This document shows positions 21,130 through 41,901 of a stretch of 64,000 nt of DNA, one piece after another. This DNA comes from Candidatus Promineifilum breve. GTDB taxonomy: Bacteria > Chloroflexota > Anaerolineae > Promineifilales > Promineifilaceae. The translations under genes and the position numbers were made by a program. The notes beneath the pieces were generated by a model that ran no database searches, was not told the origin of the DNA, and saw nothing but the letters and a program-made list of their open reading frames with translations. The first letter of the stretch is position 1. The number at the start of each line of letters is the position of its first letter. The stretch covers positions 3,760,726 to 3,824,725 of the forward strand of contig NZ_LN890655.1 of the NCBI RefSeq assembly GCF_900066015.1, read 5' to 3'.

Positions 21130-21158
21130 TTGACACCATGCCGCTTCTAGGCTAAAAT
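21130..21158 (+). promoter_or_regulatory. Promoter of the tRNA-Ala/leuS transcript
   Basis: TTGACA (21130-21135) and TAAAAT (21153-21158) are spaced by 17 bases, close to consensus. Transcription should start near 21165, eight bases before the first tRNA-Ala. No clear terminator with a T-tract follows that tRNA, so the transcript may run on into the T-box leader. Confidence 0.8.
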
Positions 21159-21172
21159 CCAATCTTGCTGTT

Positions 21173-21245
<73 letters not shown>

Positions 21246-21284: not shown

Positions 21285-21600
21285 CGAAGAGATAAAGGCA
21301 GTGATCAGGAGTAGTAGGCGCGTAGGCTAGAGAGCCGCCCCACGGCTGAAAGGGTGGCAGCGGTCGCCGAACTCGCCTGAGAGCCGCGCCGGTGAAACAA
21401 ATAGCCGGTGCCGGATTACGCCCGTTACGCGTTAAAGTGGATGGTATGGGCCTGTAGCTCAATTGGGAGAGCGCCACAATGGCATTGTGGAGGTCAAGGG
21501 TTCGAACCCCTTCAGGTCCACTTTTGTACCGTCAATCAGAGTGGTACCGCGGAACCCCTTTCGTCTCTGAGCGAAAGGGGTTCTTTTGTTTTTCAGGCTA
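21285..21600 (+). promoter_or_regulatory. Leucine T-box leader of leuS, containing a tRNA-Ala gene
   Basis: Stem I begins near GATAAAGG at 21291. Its specifier loop has AGTA (21313-21316) on the 5' side and GAA (21369-21371) on the 3' side, flanked by pairs GGCG/CGCC above and CAGG/CCTG below. The codon after GAA is CTC (21372-21374), a leucine codon, matching the downstream gene leuS. The conserved CCCGTTA is at 21421. The T-box TGGTACCGCGG is at 21542-21552, with antiterminator stem CAGAG/CTCTG. The terminator hairpin AACCCCTTTCG/CGAAAGGGGTT lies at 21553-21582 and is followed by a T-rich tract. Uncharged tRNA-Leu should favour the antiterminator and leuS expression. A complete tRNA-Ala gene lies between the CCCGTTA and the T-box. 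Confidence 0.85.
21448..21520 (+). tRNA. tRNA-Ala (anticodon GGC), inside the leuS T-box leader
   Basis: A complete 73-base cloverleaf: acceptor GGGCCTG/CAGGTCC with G3:U70, D stem GCTC/GAGC, anticodon stem CCACA/TGTGG with loop ATGGCAT (anticodon GGC), T stem AAGGG/CCCTT around TTCGAAC. All stems pair, so it is not a relic. CCA is not encoded. It shares its acceptor and D-arm sequence with the tRNA-Ala(CGC) 200 bases upstream, so the two are related copies. Its position separates stem I of the T-box from the antiterminator. Confidence 0.95.
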
Positions 21601-21622
21601 CTTAGTGTGGAGTTGAGTTTCC

Positions 21623-39180: not shown

Positions 39181-39254
<74 letters not shown>

Positions 39255-41690: not shown

Positions 41691-41808
41691 GGGGCGACGG
41701 GACGGGCGGTATTAATCGCTCATCTCATCTAAAGGTTCCAGTATCCTGGTTCCTTCGCAGGTAATGTAAAGTTACCATGACCTGCTTAGGATGTCAACCA
41801 ACTCTAAT

Positions 41809-41880
41809 TGCCCCTGACAGGACTCGAACCCGTATACAATCCCTGCGAAGGAAAAGCCTTATCCATTAGGCTACAGGGGC
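41809..41880 (-). tRNA. tRNA in the phage region, probably tRNA-Arg (TCG)
   Basis: A 72-base cloverleaf: acceptor GCCCCTG/CAGGGGC, D stem GCCT/AGGC with loop AATGGATA, T stem ACGGG/CCTGT around TTCGAGT. The anticodon arm is weak. The alignment with stem TTTTC/GGGAT gives loop CTTCGCA and anticodon TCG (Arg); a shift by one base would give CGC (Ala). The D-loop fits arginine tRNAs better. CCA is not encoded. It has its own promoter. Confidence 0.7.
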
Positions 41881-41901
41881 ATATTTGTTGTACTGCCGGA
41901 C

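Follow-up and report, generated by a model that had tools for sequence, protein, structure and literature searches.

Riboswitches are generally thought of as RNA spent on regulation. In the leader described here an essential-looking single-copy tRNA gene sits in the aminoacylation-sensing domain, which has nevertheless stayed intact around it in organisms of several phyla. This leader precedes leuS in the window, i.e. the whole stretch of 64,000 nucleotides that was analysed; a preliminary description of this DNA had recognised in it the parts of a leucine T-box and a complete tRNA-Ala(GGC) gene.

Anatomy of the leuS leader

The leader is a T-box by every feature examined here, and its response to uncharged tRNA-Leu is predicted. 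The complete RF00230 model (1-219) aligns with it at 94.4 bits against a gathering threshold of 93 (E 2e-19; cmscan), a score that barely exceeds the cut-off; stem I is not rejected by this covariance search, which the preliminary description had proposed as a check. AGUA, GAA, CUC, the F-box, UGGUACCGCGG and the terminator, all claimed in that description, were recovered from the sequence, the cmscan alignment and a terminator scan (Table 1). In a T-box review (PMC7583486) the discriminator is defined as 5'-RRRxG-Stem III-AA-3', with Stem III indispensable and its stem and loop a variable part of T-boxes; the window has RRRxG-Stem III-AA together with an antiterminator that carries the UGGN bulge UGGUACC, and a competing terminator is found by fold and terminator scan. 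The specifier CUC stands ahead of leuS, and the cognate tRNA-Leu(GAG), the expected ligand, is encoded by a single copy in the genome, with a discriminator A that fits UGGU.

From the purine string onwards the leader reads AAGUG-GAUGGUA-U-[tRNA-Ala]-CUUUUG-UACCGUC-AA-UCAGAGUGGUACCGCGG. The placement of the tRNA between stem I and the antiterminator, as first described, is correct but too loose: the gene sits inside the Stem III loop, with the two Stem III arms paired around it, and the cmscan alignment likewise shows it as an insertion, in the Stem III loop of the model. On this sequence evidence the leader is probably a leucine-specific, transcription-attenuating T-box of leuS with a working tRNA-Ala(GGC) gene in place of its Stem III loop.

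Table 1. Features of the leuS leader and its surroundings, in window coordinates.
Feature	Position	Strand	Basis or remark
Sigma-70-like promoter, TTGACA-17-TAAAAT	21130..21158	+	11/12 consensus matches
tRNA-Ala(CGC)	21173..21245	+	46 nt upstream of T-box
Leucine T-box leader RF00230	21292..21571	+	cmscan; tRNA gene as insertion
AGUA, specifier-loop S-turn of stem I	21313..21316	+	sequence and RF00230 alignment
GAA and specifier codon CUC, read by tRNA-Leu(GAG)	21369..21374	+	sequence and RF00230 alignment
CCGUUA F-box, Stem IIA/B region	21422..21427	+	sequence and RF00230 alignment
RRRxG purine string AAGUG, 5' of Stem III	21435..21439	+	sequence; motif as defined in PMC7583486
Stem III 5' arm GAUGGUA	21440..21446	+	fold, pairing with 21527-21533; covariation
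Nested tRNA-Ala(GGC), G3:U70, CCA not encoded	21448..21520	+	ARAGORN; RF00005
Stem III 3' arm UACCGUC, then conserved AA 21534-21535	21527..21533	+	fold; covariation
Antiterminator: A1 AGAG/CUCU, A2 GCGGA/UUCGU with terminal G-U pair	21538..21568	+	helices assigned after RF00230 structure line
T-box sequence UGGUACCGCGG	21542-21552	+	sequence and RF00230 alignment
7-nt T-box bulge UGGUACC in antiterminator	21542-21548	+	UGGU fits ACCA of tRNA-Leu
Competing intrinsic terminator, 14 pairs, hairpin 21551-21584, with U-run	21551..21592	+	fold; terminator scan
leuS, leucyl-tRNA synthetase, 923 aa	21623..24394	+	relatives in class at 56-87 percent identity

The nested tRNA-Ala(GGC) gene

The claim of a complete tRNA-Ala(GGC) with G3:U70 is confirmed by two methods, ARAGORN and RF00005 (65.7 bits, cmscan), and the gene has a cloverleaf, the GGC anticodon and the G3:U70 identity pair. 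In the predicted fold of 21436-21535 the seven pairs of Stem III stack on the acceptor stem via a 6-nt bulge, and U(-1) pairs with A73 of the nested tRNA. The genome (5.03 Mb, three contigs, 99.96 percent complete, 48 tRNA matches) contains no other Ala(GGC) gene; with an Ala(GGC)-specific pattern, exactly one such gene, at the nested locus, was found in 23/23 genomes giving a match (26 were tried, and the other three did not match the pattern). With no other Ala(GGC) gene in the genome, the nested tRNA is presumably transcribed, processed and charged, and its processing would be forced; a pseudo-tRNA was rejected on account of the covariance score, G3:U70 and the single copy.

Two other tRNA-like stretches were met in the course of the survey. 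A weak tRNA called Ala(CGC) at window 41808-41881 (minus; 52.6 bits), without G3:U70 and with a mismatched anticodon stem, is probably a mis-called or decayed tRNA, and a partial near-identical copy of the tRNA-Val(CAC) gene at window 39181-39254 lies at G000:C1:3835785-3835845, possibly as an integration scar.

Promoter and transcript

The promoter scan found no second strong promoter upstream besides the sigma-70-like one of Table 1, which is followed by tRNA-Ala(CGC), a gene that differs from the nested tRNA at 7 of 73 nt and is a conserved neighbour in most Anaerolineae leaders; in relatives it is likewise preceded by cTTGACA..TANNAT. This upstream tRNA is absent from the preliminary description. 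Because this is the only strong promoter upstream, and the scan between tRNA-Ala(CGC) and the T-box returned no terminator-like site, one transcript from it likely comprises tRNA-Ala(CGC), stem I, tRNA-Ala(GGC), the antiterminator/terminator and leuS. No more than 50 nt separate the nested gene from the F-box in 141/166 leaders among the matches listed, which leaves little space for a promoter of its own. In several Anaerolineae, among them members of the family (L069, L072, L086, L088, L092, L081), promoter-like sequences are found inside Stem III directly before the nested tRNA, as if the tRNA had acquired its own promoter, and there it need not always derive from a long transcript.

Distribution of nested leaders

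Pattern scans and genome searches gave at least 168 leaders in which a tRNA immediately precedes the T-box core, in every case tRNA-Ala(GGC) with G3:U70; some genomes are counted twice, the independent number being lower, and 109 distinct Stem III arm pairs are represented. In particular, 84,980 named species genomes were scanned with a tRNA-agnostic pattern, which returned at least 118 stretches; 101 of the matches listed carry tRNA-Ala(GGC), and nearly all of these have a Leu specifier upstream and leuS downstream. When at least 169 tRNAs near a T-box core are pooled, Ala(GGC) accounts for 168/169 among the matches listed, and the lone exception, a tRNA-Tyr in a tRNA cluster (L118), is judged to be there by chance. 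A detection artefact favouring Ala was rejected, the T-arm pattern fitting 40/49 genome tRNAs and every amino-acid type except Phe.

The nested pattern (the T-arm of any tRNA, 25-55 nt, the T-box core) occurs in 54/396 genomes of the Anaerolineae class, 29/113 of the class of Desulfofundulus (Bacillota) and 14/151 phylum genomes (Chloroflexota), counts that are lower bounds as the pattern restricts the gap, and its reversed control gave 0 in all of these ~660 genomes. Direct reading of leuS upstream regions found the nested order in the whole genus and the greater part of the family; at least five other families of the class have it too. Among the matches listed, the carriers span Bacillota, Chloroflexota, Thermomicrobiota, Armatimonadota and Coprothermobacterota, and include Syntrophomonas wolfei, Desulfofundulus and Thermosyntropha in Bacillota, as well as Desulfovirgula, Symbiobacterium, Sphaerobacter and other Thermomicrobiota, a Ktedonobacter and many Anaerolineae. 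Of the 19 loci from the species-genome scan that were scanned with RF00230, 11 have a match above gathering that spans the tRNA, with the highest score in Thermosyntropha (133 bits) and with Desulfofundulus and Syntrophomonas wolfei also above gathering; many relatives fall below the cut-off, mostly at E 1e-8 or better. A local assembly accident or a recent insertion was rejected on the ground that the same arrangement recurs in the genus, the family, the class and other phyla.

Where leaders seemed to be missing before leuS in some relatives, intervening genes were part of the reason. In some carriers (L112, L132, L194 and L215; L128 and L168) the T-box is followed first by an acyl-CoA synthetase-like or branched-chain aminotransferase-like gene, with leuS behind it (gene names assigned by eye from sequence).

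Conservation and covariation of the switch

In the 165 nested leaders with sufficient upstream sequence, and among the matches listed, GAACTC (the Leu specifier) is found in 160, the AGTA/AGCA (AGUA/AGCA) motif in 157, the F-box motif in 158, RRRxG and AA in 164 each, and a terminator-strength hairpin 3' of the core in all 165. The T-box core itself was the search criterion for nested leaders; the RRRxG and AGAGA patterns are loose and lend weak support, GAACTC and the F-box being more specific.

If a T-box remains functional while its Stem III loop holds a tRNA, the arms that enclose the tRNA should covary. Of six positions, a mean of 5.11 are paired, against 3.62 +/- 0.08 when 3' arms are swapped between leaders (maximum 3.92 in 2000 shuffles); shuffling leaves relatedness in. 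A few leaders are mis-anchored, so that the figure is conservative. The third pair of Stem III is TA in 53 cases, CG in 30, GC in 7, TG in 4 and AT in 3, and distant lineages have paired arms as different as GAUAAGU/ACUUAUC, GGCCAGG/CCCUGGCC and AGCUAAU/AUUAGCU. These varied pair types at single positions and the distant-lineage examples argue for selection on the pairing around the tRNA, and the covariation of the arms thus for a switch maintained around the tRNA gene; any T-box that works should show such pairing, which is silent on whether the two halves are held together after excision. Coincidental overlap between a tRNA and a degenerate T-box was rejected in view of the empty reversed control, the covariation and the conserved specifier. 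The central claim of the preliminary description, a leucine T-box of leuS that contains an intact tRNA-Ala gene, is thus supported by the covariance model, the T-box motifs, the covarying Stem III arms, the single copy of the tRNA and its recurrence across phyla.

Natural variants and evolutionary history

The comparison of leuS leaders, on which the preliminary description had made the T-box depend, shows the nested T-box conserved across phyla; relatives devoid of a T-box do exist. In the Bacillota class L288 and L292 have kept the tRNA before leuS and lost the T-box, and in Anaerolineae L094 and L095 have tRNAs and no T-box; these are scattered exceptions among nested relatives, which reads as repeated loss and not as evidence against the T-box. 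The opposite state is also found: of the Bacillota class, L294 carries this T-box without a tRNA, a short loop closing Stem III (GGUAAGAGAUUGCUUACC-AA), and L284 has another insert in place of the tRNA and keeps the T-box, while in Anaerolineae L066 is a tRNA-less T-box whose Stem III is closed by a short loop. The insertion site maps to the Stem III loop because the tRNA-less versions L294 and L066 have a short loop at that place. In four Anaerolineae genomes (G040, G058, G036 and G041; loci L078, L089, L093 and L104) the T-box is intact and the tRNAs lie upstream of it. In L191 the tRNA and antiterminator are kept and most of stem I is missing, a natural sensor-less version.

A LeuS tree (FastTree), whose sampling is biased to nested loci, splits mainly by phylum (changes: Bacillota 3, Chloroflexota 5) and implies that the nested state changed seven times or more. 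It is compatible with an old origin followed by repeated loss, and transfer at the level of the leader would also be possible. An alternative, that tRNA-Ala and T-box spread horizontally as a cassette, with or without leuS, and were not inherited vertically from an ancient ancestor, is doubtful. It would account for the patchy spread over the phyla named above and for some LeuS rows that cluster against their labelled phylum (L130, L110, L133/L180); the tree's division largely by phylum, however, indicates that leuS itself rarely travelled, and the nested tRNAs differ from each other, CCA being encoded in 83/168 among the matches listed.

Proposed order of events and alternative readings

The single leader RNA appears both to sense tRNA-Leu and to serve as precursor of the only tRNA-Ala(GGC) that the cell has. 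Stem I, made first by RNA polymerase, would bind the anticodon of tRNA-Leu(GAG); tRNA-Ala would then fold independently to form the Stem III tip, whereupon the Stem III arms would close beneath it, completing the discriminator that reads the 3' end of tRNA-Leu. The choice between termination and read-through into leuS would be settled co-transcriptionally, less than about 70 nt past the tRNA 3' end, and RNase P together with RNase Z (or exonucleases) would afterwards release tRNA-Ala from terminated and read-through RNAs alike. The span from the tRNA end to the terminator U-run is ~70 nt in the sequence, so that the decision should usually precede processing, and the position of the tRNA upstream of the terminator would make its supply independent of read-through into leuS. 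The tRNA-Ala output would thus be set by the promoter alone and that of leuS by leucine charging, while excision would separate sensor from switch and give the leuS mRNA a new 5' end. A decision before processing, with excision from both types of RNA, is considered most likely; set against suppressed processing or a coupling of tRNA maturation to leuS control, the other possibilities raised in the preliminary description, it is also the simplest. As a conjecture, the cell may benefit in that even a terminated leader is put to use, and in that tRNA-Leu is released when excision takes the sensor apart.

Processing could instead be part of the switch, RNase P/RNase Z cleavage competing with the decision, so that early excision parts stem I from the discriminator, forces termination and couples tRNA maturation to leuS, or bound tRNA-Leu shields the leader. 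The position inside the discriminator is conserved across phyla and a cut there must affect the switch, the single-copy tRNA forces processing, and the thrS and thrZ leaders of B. subtilis are known to be cleaved upstream of the terminator (PMC3997798); yet ~70 nt leave little time for two nucleases, and thrS is cut by other nucleases at another site; this reading is quite improbable. Even less probable is a regulatory role of the nested tRNA-Ala itself, for example as a module acting in cis, structural or alanine-sensing, by which Stem III stacking is tuned or alanine and leucine supply are linked. The exclusive use of tRNA-Ala(GGC) among the matches listed and the predicted Stem III/acceptor stacking, with its 6-nt bulge and U(-1)-A73 pair, would suit such a module, but a 3'-extended tRNA is not chargeable before processing, one origin suffices to explain one tRNA, and the linker from the tRNA to the T-box core varies from 13 to 86 nt across nested leaders.

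The best placed of the alternatives, possible if not probable, is an arrangement frozen without regulatory meaning, in which tRNA-Ala landed in the tolerant Stem III loop of an ancestor and, being essential, was rarely lost; it is compatible with the order of events preferred above and differs from it on why the nesting was kept. It agrees with the variable stem and loop of Stem III described in the T-box review (PMC7583486), with the single copy of the tRNA, with losses in both directions (of the T-box in L288, L292 and L094; absence of the tRNA in L294, L284 and L066) and with the tRNAs placed upstream of an intact T-box in the four Anaerolineae genomes. Essentiality, however, explains the retention of the tRNA and not that of a T-box closed around it by covarying arms in most carriers, nor that, among the matches listed, the tRNA never varies and the amino acid specificity hardly ever does. 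The most far-reaching proposal, an ancient and phylum-crossing class of T-boxes whose leucine sensor is timed, reset or destroyed as tRNA-Ala(GGC) folds in Stem III and is excised from it, which would link alanine-tRNA supply mechanistically to leuS expression, is unlikely, although less so than cleavage acting as the switch.

Relation to known systems

The leader shares with transcriptional T-boxes (RF00230), such as those of Bacillota leuS leaders, the AGUA/GAA-CUC stem I, the F-box, RRRxG-Stem III-AA, the UGGUACCGCGG antiterminator, the terminator and an aminoacyl-tRNA synthetase downstream, and differs from the usual ones in having a complete single-copy tRNA-Ala(GGC) gene as its Stem III loop. 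Insertions of unknown function occur in every T-box domain according to the review cited above, whose available text does not mention a tRNA gene (PMC7583486); nested tRNA genes may explain some of its 'curious insertions'. In the thrS/thrZ leaders of B. subtilis (PMC3997798) the T-box RNA is cut upstream of the terminator and the 5' sensor is parted from the mRNA, the same outcome as is predicted here; there the cut is made by RNase J or RNase Y and releases no tRNA, whereas the cuts expected here are those of tRNA maturation. Tandem T-boxes are likewise a lineage-specific elaboration of the T-box core, but in the leuS leader there is no second sensor and the added module is a gene product. 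In plants, dicistronic tRNA-mRNA transcripts combine a tRNA and an mRNA on one RNA, as is probably the case here. Mixed tRNA-mRNA transcripts also exist in bacteria; in contrast to these, the tRNA of the leuS leader is enclosed by a folded regulatory domain of that very leader and separates the leader's two halves.

The first description knew of no T-box containing a tRNA gene, and none was found in the literature covered, i.e. the accessible portions of the open literature, the 2008 T-box survey, TBDB and the 2020 review; an earlier mention in older surveys is possible. Within that scope this is a T-box of known kind with a nested tRNA gene for which no precedent was found, and which would be previously undescribed. 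It suggests that Stem III of a T-box discriminator can accommodate an entire folded RNA, and it offers a natural system for asking whether T-box decisions precede RNase P processing. Annotation of the tRNA alone hides the riboswitch, and vice versa.

Other leuS and T-box loci of the genome

A second leuS lies at G000:C1:3310310-3311374 (minus) and is 51-52 percent identical over the tested part; neither a T-box nor a tRNA was found in its upstream region. Since this second gene exists, control of the leuS in the window may be less important in this genome. Both kinds of leuS were matched in several relatives too. The only copy of tRNA-Leu(GAG) lies ~10 nt before another T-box, which precedes an asd-like gene (L005 / L053, G000:C1:3139412-3139731); a near-perfect promoter, TTGACA..TATAAT, stands ahead of it, and at this locus the tRNA is upstream of the T-box and not nested in it.
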